Below, in pieces: positions 29,737 through 61,471 of a stretch of DNA of 64,000 nucleotides. The position numbers and the translations under genes are program-made. Where the stretch lies: the NCBI RefSeq assembly GCF_026210795.1, contig NC_089451.1, positions 1,410,001 through 1,474,000 of the forward strand. Direction: 5' to 3'. Every line of letters starts with the position of its first letter. Position 1 is the first letter of the stretch. The notes beneath the pieces were generated by a model, which was given only the letters and a program-made list of their open reading frames with translations, was not told where the DNA came from and searched no databases. Origin of the DNA: Rhizophagus irregularis (taxonomy: Eukaryota > Glomeromycota > Glomeromycetes > Glomerales > Glomeraceae).

Positions 29737-30371
29737 TTATTCTTCCTCAATTACTTCTGGCTCAGGGACCGGCTGAGGAGCTGACTGAGAAGTACCTTTT
29801 TCACCTTTTATTTTAATCAAATAAACGTTAGTTCAACTTTTTCAAAATAAAAAAAAAAATTATTCTTACAAACTCACCTTTACTTTTCGTGGTTTTCTTT
29901 GGTAACAAGCTTTCATGAATGTTAGGTAAGACACCTCCTTGAACAATAGTGACGTTTCCAAGTAATTTGTCCAATTCTTCATCGTTACGAATGGCCAATT
30001 GAAGATGGCGAGGAACAATTCTTGCTTTCTTGTTATCACGAGCGGCATTACCAGCAAGTTCTAATATTTCAGCTACCAAATATTCAATAACTGCAGCAAG
30101 ATAGACGGGTGCACTAGCACCAGTACGTGGTGCATAGTTTCCATCTCGAAGATAACGACCAATACGCGCGACTGGAAATTGGAGACCAGCCTAAAAGATT
30201 AATAATCGATATATTAACGAAGAATTAAATTAAAAAAAAATAAAAAAAATTTAAAAAAATTTTACAAAGTAAAGTACTTTGTCTTTCGATACCCAAACAT
30301 ACTTTTGCAGATCTTGAATATTTCTTCTTTCCTTCTGCTGATACACTTTTGCCAATACCTAGACCGCTCAT
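29737..30371 (-). CDS. Histone H2A variant with divergent acidic tail (149 aa)
   Basis: Three exons, 30371-30303, 30190-29878 and 29804-29737, total 450 nt with GT-AG junctions in phases 0 and 1. The core is unmistakable H2[59 protein letters not shown] and [15 protein letters not shown]. Acidic-patch residues (EYLVAE, DEEL) are kept. Differences from canonical H2A are a non-standard N-tail ([15 protein letters not shown]), [11 protein letters not shown] in place of KGNYAERVGAG, and a longer C-tail ending in PEPEVIEEE. The tail lacks the terminal SQE(L/Y/F) motif of H2A.X-type fungal H2A, although an internal TSQ is present. It is not H2A.Z-like. Two introns and no neighbouring H2B argue against a replication-dependent histone pair. 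It is probably a replacement or specialised variant. Confidence 0.92.
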
Positions 30372-51108: not shown

Positions 51109-51681
51109 TTAAATAGGGAAATATTTATGAACAATAAAGAAAAGAATAATAATAATTACATAATAGAAAAAAAGAAATTTATAATTATTCAATCGTTTAA
51201 AGCTTTCAAGTTTACTATAGAATTATTTAAAAGATTTATTATTTAAGATTATTATTATTTCGTATAAAAAAAAAATAACAGATAAGATTACTTACATTAT
51301 TGAATAAATTCTTTCTTTTTGAAACAATATTTTTTGAATGATGAATTTCTTCCTATAAAAATAATTAAGAAAAATTCACTATTGTTAAATAAACATACTT
51401 GATTGAATAAATTCTTTTATTTATACGTAAAATAATAAAACGTTTTATAGTAATTTTTATCCTTCAAGGATGTACTAGAATATTAGTTATTGTATTTCAA
51501 GAGAAAAGTGAATTTTTGATTACTTACGCGAATGAATAAATTTTATCAATTCTGTATTTTCGAAATATAGAAAAATCAAATAAATGTTATTTTATATTAA
51601 GTTATTTTATTTTAATAAATTATTACTTACATCATTGAATCAATTTTGCTTTTTACGATTTTTTCACGATTTACTGATTTG
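51109..51681 (-). other. Mini-exon cluster and membrane-anchor exon of gene 2
   Basis: The candidate exons are all flanked by AG and GT, all divisible by three up to the terminal one, and all phase 2-2. The first (51681-51631) codes NREKIVKSKIDSM and matches the first mini-exon of gene 3 (NEKITKSQVNL). The others end in KIYSF, IYSI and ERIYSI just before the donor. The terminal exon (35 codons including stop) is a transmembrane-like tail. Similarity to gene 3 at the same position supports an ancestral 3' exon set. Confidence 0.7.
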
Positions 51682-53142
51682 CTATGTAACAAAGTGAATA
51701 TTAATTTTCACGTTATCATAATTTATTATTTCCTGTAATCACTTACTTAAGTTTTGTAATTTTAAAAACTTCATAATCTTCCATCAAATCAACATTTATA
51801 AAAGATTCTTTTCCAGGATCCTTGATGGTCAAATTAAATAAGTTAATAAAGCTAGGATAATCAGTAAAAATAGAGTCGTAATCATCACATCTTGCAATTA
51901 TAGGTGAACTAAGATCATCTTGATTTTTAAAAGAAAATATAAAGCTATCGCCTAACATTGCGTGATTTTTTATATTATATCCTCCAATTAACCTTCCAGT
52001 ATCTTTAACTTTAGCAACAATGAGTGTTGGTCCTTTATCATCACATAATTCATGGAATTTTGTTGTTTCAAATCCATCTCTAGTTGCGCTATAAAGTAGT
52101 TCAAGAGAATAAGGAACATTCTTAATATTGTAATATTCTTTTTCTTTATCTATCCAACTAGTAATTATAGCAAAGTGTTTTTTATTTATAATTTTAAAGG
52201 ACGGATTTCTTGGTTGTGATACGAATAAAGATTTTGGTGGGGAATCAGGATCTAAATAGTATCCAATTATATCATCGTAAATATTTTCCGAAAAAATCCT
52301 TTTAAACGGGCTTATTTTTTGATGAAATAATTTTGGAGGGATTTGGGCCCATCTAATAAGTAGAATAAAATCGTAAAGAATTTCTCCAAGTTCAACGAAA
52401 TCTTCTTCAGTCCAATTGGAATATACATTAATATTAATACATTTTGACATTTGTGCTATTCCCCATTCTAATATATATTCCCAAATATTATATTCATTCA
52501 TGTATAAATCATCTCTTTTAACAATAGAGATTAAAATAGTCTTATCTATTGTTAAAAACGTGGAAGATTCAAATAATACTTCAGGGTTATCACAGATTAA
52601 CTGTAAATAAAAATTTTTTATAGAAGTTAAAGATTCATAGTGAAGTATCGTTTGAAGAACTTCAGTTGGATCTTCGTTTAAAAATTTCTCTTGTTTCTCA
52701 ATTATGTAACTTTCTATATAATTTTGTAAATTTCCGAAACATATTTCATCTGACGCTACAAGATATTTTAATATATCTAGTCCTTTCTGTTTATCTAATT
52801 CAATGGTTCCAGTATAAATATACCTTTTAAACGAACATATATAAAATTATTATAAGTTCATTAAAATTAATAAATAAGATGAAATATTTTAACTTACTTT
52901 AATATTAATTCCATAATTTTTGGATTAATATTTGGTTTATTAAAAACGACAATTCCATATTTTTTACGAGCCCAATTCTTTGATAATGCAGCTTTAAAAT
53001 AAGTTGACCTTGAACTTAATATTAAAGAGTGAGTATAGAAACTTCTAATATTTTCATTTTTTCCAGCTTTAATAATTACATCATAATTATTTCCGCTAGA
53101 AAGTAATTTTTCAAAATCATTTAATAATTCATCTGGTGTCAT
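51109..53142 (-). CDS. BTB-BACK-TLDc protein, gene 2, with mini-exon 3' extension (~524 aa spliced)
   Basis: Exon 1 is 53142-52898 (BTB: GNNYDVIIKAGKN, FYTHSLILSSRSTYFKAALS). Exon 2 starts at 52823 (KYIYTGTIELDK), with BACK helices, NEYNIWEYILEWGIAQM, and a TLDc domain (KHFAIITSWID, LELLYSATRDGFET, FHELCDDKGPTLIVAKVKD, GRLIGGYN, LMEDYEVFKITKL). An unspliced message ends at TAA 51743. That TAA is inside CTTAA|GTAAGTG. Splicing from 51747 continues in phase 2 through 51681-51631, 51551-51528, 51413-51399 and 51352-51296 to a terminal exon 51214-51109, which codes a hydrophobic FLFFYYVIIIILFFIV segment and a stop. The frame is open throughout. The 24- and 15-nt exons are the least certain. The likely role is that of a Cul3-type BTB adaptor with a TLDc domain, either soluble or C-terminally membrane-anchored depending on splicing. 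Confidence 0.82.
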
Positions 53143-56100: not shown

Positions 56101-56210
56101 TAAATAATTGTTAAATGAGTAAACTCTTTTGATAGATCAAACTTTTTTCACCTTTTCTCACTTATTTAAAAAATATCTAAAAATTATTTTTTTTTTATTA
56201 GAAAAATACA
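53143..56210. other. 3 kb intergenic region between divergent genes
   Basis: It lies between BTB-TLDc gene 2 (-) and the Crinkler-domain gene (+). The 73- and 78-codon plus-strand frames at 54093-54314 and 55607-55843 are not supported by any motif. A relic related to the 3266-4056 element lies at about 53398-53790, and a fragment with GGGAAAAGGGAAA and ATGTCGGCAAAATCATG words at about 55420-55500. Confidence 0.45.
53398..53790. mobile_element. Decayed relative of the 3266-4056 inverted-repeat element
   Basis: The left side has TTTTCCTGACATGACATTTC with CCAAAAG following, very like 3410-3455. The right side (about 53705-53775), read in reverse, has TTTCCCGGCAAC and GACAAGATATTTCTC in the same order. 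The arms are much diverged and no target duplication is visible. Confidence 0.45.
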
Positions 56211-57103
56211 ATGTCCGAAACAAATATCACAATATTCTGTCTTGTTCTTGGAGAAAAACCCATTAATAGTTGCGTTTTCGAAGTTAATATCAATAAATAC
56301 GATAGTATTTCACGCCTCAAAAACGTTATAAGGGATGAAAAAAAAAATGATTTTTTTAATATTGACGCTAACAAACTGAGATTATGGAAAGTTGATATAC
56401 CTATTATTGAAGACGATAAGCTGAAAATACTTAATAAGCCTCATACAGAGATTAATATTGAACAAGAACTTGGAGGTGAAGAGCTTTCATCGGTTAAGAA
56501 AATTCATCATTACTTCCACAAACCCAAAGATGAGCACATTCATATCATCATAACATTGCCCACCAATAACATTGGTAAATGGTACGTCTTCTTTGAACCA
56601 GCGAATCAACAAAAAATTGATGATTCTATGATCAAAAAAGAATACGAAAAGGTTGAAAAAATCGCAAAAGATATTGGTTTGGACGACTGGCTGTTGCTTA
56701 TTATGTCAAACTGTTCAAATAATACATTTAAAACCAACTTACCATCAAAATGTACGATTAACGATGAAATTCAATTCTATGATCCATCTCGGGACCAAAT
56801 TGTTGACTGTAAGCTATATATATATCCTTAAAAAAATTTCATTTCTTGTTATTTCAGTTTATTAATTGAATAATTTACTCCTTTGTAGCTCAAGATAAGT
56901 CCTGCATTAATTCTAGGGTTATTGATGACATTGAGCAAGAAACTGTATCCGATACTATTGAATTTGATGAATATAATAAAAGAAAATTTGATGATGATGA
57001 GGATCTATTAATACGCACAAAGTTTCCAAGGTTGTCCTTAGATTGTGCAGAGGACGAACCCTTAAAACCCTTAAAACAAAGCGTAAAGATTTTAATGTAT
57101 TAG
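56211..57103 (+). CDS. Crinkler (CRN) N-terminal-domain protein (two exons, 270 aa)
   Basis: Exon 1 is 56211-56808 and exon 2 is 56889-57103, joined in phase 1 (GACT|GTAAGC, TTTGTAG|CTCAAG). Residues ~5-110 match the CRN ubiquitin-like N-terminal domain known from oomycete and Glomeromycotina effectors: TIFCLVLGEKPINSCVFEVN, SISRLKNVIRDEKK, ANKLRLWKVDIPI, then a variable loop, HYFHKPKDEHIHIII. No classical signal peptide is present, as is usual for fungal members. The rest (GKWYVFFEPANQQKID, a helical EYEKVEKIAKDIGLDDW, an acidic tail FDDDEDLL) is short. The large C-terminal nuclease- or kinase-like domains common in CRNs are absent. It could be a header-only paralogue or a minimal effector. 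The function is unproven. Confidence 0.87.
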
Positions 57104-57601: not shown

Positions 57602-59909
57602 TTATAATTGGTAAATATAAATTACAAGACCAAGAATAAATCTAAATTTAATTAAGTCTATTTTAAAGAAATTATTTATAAATAACAAAAGAATGAACAA
57701 AAGAAAAAATATAACAAAAAATTTAATTACATATTGGAAAGAAAGATTAATACTAATTGAACTACTAATAACAGTTGATGTACTTGTCAGTGAGACAATT
57801 GGGATACTTGCAAATTTACTATAAAATAATTAAAGGAAATTAATACTATGTTTACTATTTTATATTATAACTTGTATTATATAATTAACGATAAATATAC
57901 TTACACGATTGAATTAATTTTATCCCTTTGATATAAAATAATTACTATATTGGCACATCCTTGAAAGATTGCAATAGTTGACATAAATTTACTGTAAATT
58001 GATTAAAAGATCAATTAGTATTTTAAAATATAGAATAATGGACAATTTCATTCTGATATTAATTACTTACATAACTGAATAAAATTTTCCTTTTTGAAAT
58101 ATAGTATACAATATATCAATACATTTTCTAAAAGTAAATTTACTAGATTGAGATTAAAGCAAAGAACATAGTTAGCAAGGTAATTTCATAGGTATTAAAA
58201 TTAAGGAAAGTTCTAAGTTACTTACATAATTGAATAAGATTGAAATATAATAGTAATACATATTTGAAAAGTGAAGTTGCTATAAAAAAAAATTAGCATT
58301 AATTTAAAAATAATACGTTAATTATATAAAACATCCTTATAACGGCATTGCAATTACTCACGTAATTAAATAGGTTGTAAATATAATATCAGCACATCTT
58401 TGAAAAATAAATTTTCTATAAAATAATTAAAAATTGAAAATTAGTTTAACAATGCGCTAAATATAATATAAAGGAAGCTAGGATCAAATTTGAAATATAA
58501 CATCAGTACATAAAGAATTAAAAGGAAAATTAGGGTTGTTTTATATATGGGTGACTATACAGAATCGTGAATATTAAGAGTAATGCTCATAAGATCACCC
58601 AACAGTTTTAACAAATCACTTACATAATTGAATAAATTTTATAAACAACGTCGGTACATCTTTGAAAGATAATTTTACTATAAATAATTAAAGTAAATTA
58701 GTACGAATTCATATAAATAATAGTAAAAAACGAATTACTTACATGGTATTAAATAATATTTTAGCACATTCTTGTAAGGTATTTTTGCTATAAGATGATT
58801 AAAGAGAAAGGTAGTATTATTTCATAATAAAGAATTTTCATTGGTGAGTATTAATTACTGGATAGTGATTGCGTATAGAAATCATCGCATATGTTTTAGC
58901 AATGTTTTGGATAAAGGTTAATTACTTACATAATTGAATAAACTTGAAATATAAAATAAGCACAACTTCGAACGCCAAATTTCCTATTATAGAGTAATTT
59001 AAGTTATTTTGTTAAAGAGAATATAAGATTCAAAAAGTAACTACTCACATAATTGAACAAATTTGAAATACAATATCAGAGCATCTTCGAAAGATAAATT
59101 TCCTATAAAAATAATAAAATAAAATTATTATTATTTCATATAAAATAATGAAAAACGAATTACTTACATAGTATCAAATAATATTTCAGCACATTTTCGT
59201 AAAGTATATTTGCTATAAGAAGATTAAGGAAATTAGCATATTTCAAAATACGTATATGTATTAAAACACGAGCTAATGATTACATATAGAGCCTGTAAAA
59301 ATCTCTCATAAGTATTAGCGGTGCCTTAAATAAAAAGACAAACCAACATTAATCACTTACATAATTGAGTAAACTTGGAATATAAAATTAGCACATATTT
59401 GAACGCTAAATTTCCTATTATAAAGTAATTAAAGTAAGTTAGCGTTATTCTGTTAAAGAGGAATGCGGGATTAATTCACAAAGACCTGTCTATGATTAGG
59501 ATTAAGTGATTACATATAAAATACGTAAAATAATCCCATTAGTTTTAGCAATTTTCCAAGTAACCCAATTCAATTACTCACATGATGGAATTAATTCTGC
59601 CAAAAGTATTAACTAATATTTTAGCGCATTCTTGGAGGGTAAATTTACTATAAGATAATAATAAAAAAAAAGTAAATAACGTCTCATATGATATAAACAA
59701 AAATTTATTATACTATAATCACTTACACGAACGAAGAAATCTTATCGATTTTGTGTTTCGCGATGATAAATTCACTACAAAGATGATTAAAAGAAAAGTT
59801 AGAATCATTACGTACGTAAATTATCAACTTCAAGTATTTGATCACTTGATCACTTTACGTCGTTAAATTAACTTGGCTTTTCGTAATTTTTTCATTTTTT
59901 ATTAATTTG
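57602..59909 (-). repeat. Tandem mini-exon array of gene 3
   Basis: Minus-strand exons: 59909-59859, 59774-59727, 59647-59582, 59414-59361, 59212-59168, 59102-59049, 58983-58930, 58787-58743, 58677-58624, 58415-58362, 58279-58226, 58142-58071, 57991-57905, then terminal 57818-57602. The thirteen have lengths 51, 48, 66, 54, 45, 54, 54, 45, 54, 54, 54, 72 and 87 nt. Each starts one base before an AAA, AAC or GAA codon after CTATAG-type acceptors and ends in AT, AC or GT before GTAAGT, GTGAGT or GTAAAG. From the third on, each codes a variant of K-F-x-[LFV]-[QR]-x-C-[AT]-x-I-[LIF]-F-Q-x-Y-S-I, with the Cys present in all eleven. The terminal exon is open for 71 codons, including IKFFVIFFLLFILLLFI. 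A decayed copy without a donor lies at about 58490-58540. I have not seen this described. Confidence 0.75.
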
Positions 59910-61471
59910 CTATGAGAAATTAAATTAACTTTTAATTAATTTTAACATTATCGTAAAATATTAATTTAGTTAGTACTTACCTCAGTTTTGTTATTTTAAA
60001 AACTTCATAATCTTCCATCAAAAACTTTTGACCAACATTTATAAAAAATTTTGTTCCAGGAAATGAACTTGTAGAATTACATTCAAGAGTATTATCTTTG
60101 ATGAACAGATCGAATAAATTAATGAAATCAGGATCATGAATAGAGCTAGAACTGTTTAAATTAACCGCTCTTGTAATAATTGGTGATCTAACATTATTTT
60201 CATTTTTAAAAGAAAATAAAAAATGGTTATCTGATATTGTATTAAATTTCCAACTTCCTGGATTATACCCTCCAATTAACTTTCCAGTATCCTTAATTTT
60301 AGCGATAATTAATGTCGGTCCTTTATCATCACATAATTCATGAAACCTTGTTGAATCAAATCCATCTTTAGTTGCGCTATATAATAATTCGAAAGAATAA
60401 GGTATATTCTTTATTTCATAATATTTATTTTCTTTATCTATCCAACTAGAAATTATGGCAAAATGTTTTTTATTAATAATTTCTGAACTAAAAGACGGTT
60501 TTCTTGGTTGCAACAAGATTATCGATTTTGGTAATGAATCAGGATCTATGTAATATCCGACTATATCATCAAAAATATTTTCCGGAAAAAGTCTTTTAAA
60601 TGGAAAAATTTTTTGATAAAATAATTTTGGAGAGATTTGAACCCATCTAATAAGCGGAATAAAATCTGAGATAATTTTTCCAAGTTCAATGAAATTTTCC
60701 TCAGTCCAATTAAAAAGATTATCAATATCAACAGAGACTGGCATTTGCGCTATTCCCCATTCTAACACATATTCCCAAATATTATATTCTTCCACGTATA
60801 AATCGCCTCTTTGAATAAGTAAAATTAATATAGATCTATCTATTGCTAAATTTCTTGTTGAAAATAGTATTTCGGGATGATCACAAATTAATTTTAGAAA
60901 AAATCCCTTAATACAGTTAAAGATTCATACTGAAATAAAATTTGAAGAACTTCAACAGGATTATCTTGTAAAAAATCTGCTTGAACTTTAATTATATAGC
61001 TTTGAATATAATCGTTTAATCTCCAGAAGTACAGTTCATCTGATGCCATAAAAATTTTCAATATTTCGGATCCTTTTTGCTTATTCAAATCGATCGTTCC
61101 GGCATAAACGTACCTTTCCATCATCAAAAAAAAAAGTGAAAGATTAAATGAGATTTCTAAAATTTTATTACTAATATATCGTATTCATAGTCTTTTTTAA
61201 GATAAAATTTCACTTACTTTAGTAATAATTCCATAATTTTAGGATCAAATTTTGGTTCTTTAAGAAGAATCATCCCATCTTCTTTGTGGATCCAATTATT
61301 TGATAATGCAGCTTTAAAATAAGTCGACCTTAAACTTAATATTAACGAATGCGCATAAAATCTTTTAATATTTCCATTAACTCCAACTTCAATAATTACA
61401 TCATAATTATTTCCGTTGATAAGTAAATTTTCAAAATCACATAATAATTCTTCTAAAAAATTTTCTGTCAT
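57602..61471 (-). CDS. BTB-BACK-TLDc protein, gene 3, with 13 mini-exons and membrane-anchor exon; 1-nt frameshift
   Basis: Exon 1 is 61471-61218 (BTB: GNNYDVIIEVGVN, FYAHSLILSLRSTYFKAALS). Exon 2 begins at 61113 (KYVYAGTIDLNK), with a BACK region (NIWEYVLEWGIAQM) and TLDc (KHFAIISSWID, LLYSATKDGFDS, FHELCDDKGPTLIIAK, GKLIGGYNPGSW, LMEDYEVFKITK). Within BACK, a poly-A/T run at 60898-60903 is one base shorter than the frame needs (the paralogue at 52.6 kb is intact). This shifts the frame and could be a real mutation or a homopolymer error. The TLDc frame ends at TAA 59977, inside CTGAG|GTAAGT. Splicing there (exon end 59981) leads through 13 phase 2-2 mini-exons to a terminal exon 57818-57602, which codes a Ser/Thr linker and a hydrophobic tail. 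With the base restored, the spliced product would be ~780 aa; the unspliced form ends after TLDc. Confidence 0.78.

Follow-up and report, generated by a model that had tools for sequence, protein, structure and literature searches.

A 64,000-nucleotide stretch of the Rhizophagus irregularis genome (contig NC_089451.1; hereafter the window) contains a BTB-TLDc gene which, 3' of a TLDc stop codon that overlaps a splice donor, continues into an array of 13 real coding mini-exons (M0-M12) in the TLDc frame, as our analysis confirmed. We consider it probable that these symmetric mini-exons, grown by duplication, encode a conserved tail of the BTB-TLDc protein, the length of which may be set by splicing.

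The gene was recognized by Pfam matches to BTB at the N terminus (4.4e-15 for the BTB piece) and to TLD (5.5e-14); TLDc proteins have a role involving the V-ATPase. A BACK domain was matched in a tandem paralogue and in two related proteins (P0005 and P0006), and in neither the pieces of the focus gene nor the R. clarus protein P0004. Exon 2 ends CTG AG/GTAAGT and reads CTG AGG TAA if left unspliced, so that the visible TLDc stop overlaps the donor. As a first-pass annotation of this DNA had claimed, all 13 internal exons (minus strand, 57602-59909; Table 1) are multiples of three and share phase 2-2; they are 45-87 nt in length and the introns between them 65-208 nt. They are likewise open in the frame continuing from TLDc, with no in-frame stop across the 13 exons compared with 24 and 7 in the other two frames, and the spliced frame, counted from where TLDc ends up to its stop at 57602, has 318 codons. 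The GTRAGT donor given earlier for every block holds for 12 of the 13, M0 having GTAAAG, and the acceptors of M0-M12 resemble one another. The block at 57602, previously counted in the array, proved to be the terminal exon, while the 13 internal exons stand. Eleven blocks had been credited with a K-F-x-L-Q-x-C-A-x-I-x-F-Q-x-Y-S-I motif, and these are M2-M12, with Cys in all 11 here. Units could also be skipped without a change of frame, as that annotation had it, given that every internal exon (13/13) is symmetric.

Table 1. Positions in the window of the exons of the BTB-TLDc gene, its mini-exon array and its tandem paralogue.
Feature	Position	Strand	Description	Basis
Exon 1	61218..61471	-	most of BTB domain, start ATG to donor	ORF, Pfam BTB, paralogue exon of similar shape
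Exon 2	59981..61113	-	BTB end, middle region and TLDc; ends AG/GTAAGT	ORF, Pfam TLD
M0	59859..59909	-	51 nt, donor GTAAAG	in P0002 and P0003, missing from P0001
M1	59727..59774	-	48 nt	chain search, gene model
M2	59582..59647	-	66 nt, first motif module	chain search, gene model
M3	59361..59414	-	54 nt	chain search, gene model
M4	59168..59212	-	45 nt, absent from R. clarus model	chain search, gene model
M5	59049..59102	-	54 nt	chain search, gene model
M6	58930..58983	-	54 nt, P0003 terminates here via intron read-through (ATG TAA)	gene model
M7	58743..58787	-	45 nt	chain search, gene model
M8	58624..58677	-	54 nt	chain search, gene model
Possible weak module relic	58483..58511	-	in M8-M9 intron	nhmmer E 0.095
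M9	58362..58415	-	54 nt, absent from R. clarus model	chain search, gene model
M10	58226..58279	-	54 nt	chain search, gene model
M11	58071..58142	-	72 nt in gene model; 57 nt with inner acceptor	chain search, gene model
M12	57905..57991	-	87 nt	chain search, gene model, module-model match 1.4e-5
Terminal exon	57602..57818	-	hydrophobic segment near end if unspliced	
Optional intron in terminal exon	57658..57730	-	73 nt, GT-AG, 60% T	removed in P0002
Paralogue exon 1	52898..53142	-		start and junction match P0006
Paralogue exon 2	51747..52823	-	BACK and TLDc; donor/stop overlap AAG TAAGT	67% identity to focus TLDc
Paralogue mini-exon 1	51631..51681	-	51 nt, M0 homologue	sequence comparison
Paralogue mini-exon 2	51528..51551	-	24 nt, like 3' half of M1	sequence comparison
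Inverted module relic	51443..51489	+	in intron before paralogue mini-exon 3	nhmmer E 0.0012
Paralogue mini-exon 3	51296..51352	-	57 nt, motif module	nhmmer E 0.0092, cmsearch E 0.00015
Paralogue terminal exon (our reading)	51109..51214	-	hydrophobic end, Kyte-Doolittle 2.18	

Dynamic programming was used to find the longest chain of open blocks in phase 2-2, each a multiple of three in length and lying between [CT]AG and GTRA[AG], and returned precisely M0-M12 (13 blocks) in the focus gene. Control stretches, taken on both strands at 46 places of the window, gave 0-2 in 90 of 92 cases, and the remaining two, which gave 4 and 5, both overlap the paralogous array; the longest chain in 300 first-order Markov sequences was 3. 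Splice-like blocks arising by chance in AT-rich non-coding DNA would account for the weak chains of 2-3 seen in the controls and nothing more, and against this origin for the array stand both the control chain lengths and the conservation of the tail protein across species. We therefore rejected it, its probability being negligible, and the earlier opinion that chance preservation of frame is unlikely is borne out by a chain of 13 against at most 2 in the 90 controls and at most 3 in the Markov sequences.

A database search with the tail protein yielded four proteins at E ≤ 1 among 2255 candidates. The C-terminus of the R. irregularis protein P0002 (OCT59_015283) corresponds, letter for letter, to spliced M0-M12 followed by the terminal exon without its 73-nt intron, and ends in QYT. 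The gene set of strain DAOM197198 was built, according to the available text of its description, from Illumina RNA reads with Nanopore refinement (PMC10234402). P0002 presumably belongs to this set, 'OCT59' itself not being found in the main text of that paper. Compared with P0003, P0002 is without 52 residues inside TLDc, in frame, which either an additional splice or an error in the model would explain. P0003 contains M0-M6 and then stops by reading on into the next intron (ATG TAA), and P0001, from strain A1, is without M0 and otherwise agrees at 280 of 282 residues from the TLDc end on, the unrelated N-terminal part of P0001 marking it as a poor model. These gene models support the use of the mini-exons in messages, and units missing or cut short in some of them may reflect artefacts of prediction.

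In R. clarus, the BTB-TLDc protein P0004 (699 residues; BTB, Pfam 8.4e-14) is unbroken and has the tail. It aligns 11 of the 13 internal modules in order, M4 and M9 being missing, and is identical to the R. irregularis protein at 162/233 positions of the tail and 365/461 of BTB-TLDc; over the final 17 residues, P0004 and the unspliced frame of R. irregularis are identical (17/17). The Glomus cerebriforme protein P0005 ends in three tail modules with matching borders, and its tail matched the focus tail in one pairwise comparison (BLASTP, 2e-9). This tail was not among the database matches of the focus tail (E ≤ 1, 2255 candidates), and, as a protein query in its own right, it recovered only itself among 325 candidates. 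Six proteins (P0002-P0007) form one clade with 100/100 support in a midpoint-rooted tree whose inner branching is partly unresolved, and the clade neighbours P0019 and P0022 terminate at TLDc. P0007 is annotated as ending at the TLDc stop, as judged by the protein annotation alone. Comparison of the predicted proteins shows the tail to be conserved at the protein level and, as far as tree and models go, it arose before G. cerebriforme and Rhizophagus diverged.

Upstream of the array, exon 2 has a frame break in a T6 run near 60903 (minus strand; T TTT TTC just before the first-frame TAA), after which the frame agrees with R. clarus and with the paralogue. In this assembly the domains do not share a single open frame; the R. 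clarus protein is unbroken. Because P0002 and P0003 both begin downstream of the break, it does not appear to be a quirk of one assembly; possible origins are a pseudogene lesion, a feature of the strain or a shared error. We also weighed a programmed frameshift at T TTT TTC and set it aside, the downstream RNA fold being unremarkable (z -0.34) and an indel simpler. The break, and the downstream start of both models, would fit a decaying gene, i.e. a recent pseudogene whose tail seems conserved as its decay is young. We regard this as unlikely given the intact R. clarus orthologue with its tail, the undamaged state of the 318-codon frame with its 13 exons and 14 donors, and the difference of strain A1 at just 2/282 residues; even if it were true, the array would still be real in R. 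clarus.

M2-M11 are mutually alignable duplicates of one another, and an nhmmer model built from them detects M12, which was not included (1.4e-5), and the module of the paralogue (0.0092). A copy relation is supported for M2-M12 and not for M0 and M1. M3-M4-M5 and M6-M7-M8 represent a duplicated block, introns included, at a spacing of ~425 nt. Its exons are identical at 127/153 positions (83%) with 0 gap columns, and its introns at 215/264 (81%) with 96 gap columns; substitution is thus alike in exons and introns, and length is preserved in exons. The Ka/Ks check advised by the first-pass annotation gave 0.41 for the duplicated block (48 codons), a value short of significance (Fisher p 0.08). 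Counterparts of M3 and of M5-M8 occur in R. clarus, which suggests that the block was duplicated before R. irregularis and R. clarus split. At the level of sequence, these comparisons demonstrate that the array grew by repeated duplication of exon plus intron.

We surveyed 70 TLDc loci (L014-L083, from 130 matches; 129 of 1226 candidates scored) up to 1500 bases downstream, and a chain together with a donor/stop overlap was found in two of them, i.e. the focus gene (L014; 9 blocks within the 1500-base reach) and its tandem paralogue (L015; 4 blocks, one of which lies past the terminal exon and is probably due to chance). L074 has a chain of 3, and L053, L061 and L077 have chains of 2, the overlap being missing in all four. 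Run over 69 loci with cmsearch, the module model matched the paralogue twice (E 0.00015 and 0.08), and its three other matches (E 0.026, 0.89 and 1.5) were judged to be chance. Searches of the fungus's own genome with the tail protein (E ≤ 10) and a 551-nt DNA piece found this array only, among the best candidates scored. The tail array is rare among the TLDc family members examined. A further BTB-TLDc relative (L032; 35582-36823, minus strand) has a stop overlapping GTAAGT (AAG TAAGTA) and no mini-exon array, a state that is possibly ancestral. In the paralogue, the first mini-exon is resembled by M0, and the third is in none of the gene models compared; P0006, the paralogue model, contains the first two mini-exons and, with the following intron retained, stops there (GCG TAA). 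Elsewhere in the window, a gene convergent with the mini-exon gene encodes a Crinkler N-terminal domain (56202-56831, plus strand; Pfam 1.3e-20), and a piece of a histone H2A gene lies at 29828-30190 (minus strand).

Pfam returned no domain above threshold for the tail (E ≤ 1), sub-threshold matches to XPA_N (0.15) and RBD_ZCCHC3_1st (0.56) being judged chance, and a PDB sequence search with the tail gave no match. AlphaFold2 predicts long helices, mostly at pLDDT < 50. The hydrophobicity of the array has its top periodicity at 100 degrees, the modules are moderately amphipathic and, in the 18-residue units, the hydrophobic face is centred at 336 and 340 degrees, close to Cys at 340. In permutation tests the helical moment fell short of significance (P 0.10 for R. 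irregularis and 0.08 for R. clarus), and in R. irregularis strand-like periodicity is as high as helical (0.343 against 0.336). On balance we lean slightly towards a helical tail. The stalk proposed in the first-pass annotation is not upheld, its basis being helix propensity alone, with AlphaFold2 helices below pLDDT 50 for most of the tail. Nor could we sustain its adjustable number of cysteines: Cys is present in 6 of the 9 alignable motif modules of R. clarus (M2-M12 minus M4 and M9), in 0 of 2 in G. cerebriforme and is missing from the motif module of the paralogue, so that this residue does not count as a conserved motif core.

The terminal exon, if unspliced, encodes a hydrophobic segment (Kyte-Doolittle 3.0 over 19 residues); retention of the 73-nt intron supplies this segment and splicing, as in P0002, deletes it. 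That the terminal exon anchors the protein in a membrane seems doubtful. There is close to an even chance that no real anchor exists, in which case the hydrophobic stretch would be a translated T-rich intron and the true tail would end QYT: the intron has GT-AG borders, is 60% T and is removed in P0002, the R. clarus model is without the most hydrophobic part (its end reaches 1.62) and the annotated G. cerebriforme tail has nothing above 1.6. The identity of the final 17 residues of the unspliced frame in R. clarus, however, argues against such an artefact, as does the paralogue terminal exon, which is likewise hydrophobic at its end (2.18).

In phase 2 the G of GTRA falls in the last position of a codon, so that translation into a retained intron gains a single residue before it meets TAA or TGA; this holds for 14/14 donors (those of TLDc and M0-M12). 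These stops follow from phase 2 plus GTRA, and selection is not needed for them. Two gene models, P0003 and P0006, end precisely in this way. Messages with retained introns may undergo nonsense-mediated decay. With all donors spliced, 318 residues would be added to the protein, or ~277 if the 73-nt intron were also removed; exon skipping would drop one module with the frame kept, and retention at a border would give a clean C-terminal end, the first right after TLDc. The tail might keep BTB-TLDc at a membrane or a partner, which is a guess on our part.

An almost equally balanced question is whether the array simply encodes a constitutive repeat protein, with all mini-exons always spliced in, the shorter models as annotation noise and one exon per repeat as the footprint of tandem duplication; we put this slightly below an even chance. 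Such constancy would agree with P0002 holding all 13 units and with the GTRAGT donors of 12/13 internal exons and their similar acceptors, and the symmetry of frame and phase results from duplication without function being required. Set against it are gene models in which entire units are missing (M0 from P0001; M4 and M9 from P0004) and the two that terminate at retained introns. A comparison of unit number, suggested in the first-pass annotation for related strains, thus found units missing from two models. We treat these absences as two hints, at gene-model level, that units are optional; the same picture could arise from choices made in annotation or from loss in the genome. Returning to a tail whose length is set by splicing, we consider this plausible; that the variation in length is put to biological use is a tentative suggestion, somewhat less probable than its opposite. 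A still stronger version, in which splicing counts the tail units and each donor offers three outcomes (the unit is included, it is skipped, or translation stops one residue later), giving isoforms from a bare soluble protein to one with 13 modules and a membrane end, appears improbable to us. Under that version, a 54-nt unit could be gained or lost with no change in frame or in helix face; 6 of the 13 units are of this length, i.e. 18 residues or five helical turns.

The array is an unusual version of known symmetric mini-exon arrays. Fibrillar collagen genes contain tandemly duplicated symmetric exons of 54/45 bp in phase 0, encoding Gly-X-Y. The likeness lies in symmetric duplicated exons of 54 and 45 nt, whereas here the phase is 2 and the module has 18/15 residues. 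The MEG proteins of Schistosoma are varied by splicing. The MEGs resemble the array in having many short exons, mostly multiples of three; in the available text, their exons are given as 6-81 bp, mostly 15 bp, and their introns as 100 to almost 5000 bp (PMC10526429). Their proteins are described as secreted. Here, in contrast, exons of 45-87 nt and introns of 65-208 nt form the tail of a fungal BTB-TLDc protein and the units are mostly mutual copies, so that the likeness is one of layout alone. Likewise fungal are the NACHT-ANK genes of Tuber melanosporum, which encode NLR receptors and, as described in the part of the source available, have dozens of in-frame mini-exons through which splicing can diversify the C-terminal region (PMC9815663); compared by description, those mini-exons differ in being of 3 bp and their genes in being NLR. 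In R. irregularis itself, SP7-like proteins are described, in the accessible portion of the source, as modular, with a variable number of imperfect repeats (PMC11333574). They share the host fungus and variable repeat modularity with the tail but differ in their signal peptide, hydrophilic repeats and other domains, and no correspondence of exon and repeat was seen in that portion of the text. Among the literature matches listed, no title or abstract opening describes an array such as this one, most subscription papers being outside the scope of that search.

Symmetric mini-exon arrays, known from schistosomes, collagens and truffle NLR genes, are thus found here in an arbuscular mycorrhizal fungus and in a BTB-TLDc protein. 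The growth of the array is still legible in the duplicated block, the relic and inverted modules, the paralogue with three mini-exons and the orthologue with 11 of 13 units. Similar genes may in some annotations be cut too short, at the TLDc stop, which is where the annotation of P0007 ends. If graded use of the units proves true, the array would, since 14/14 donors double as stops, be a compact natural test of a tail length set by splicing.
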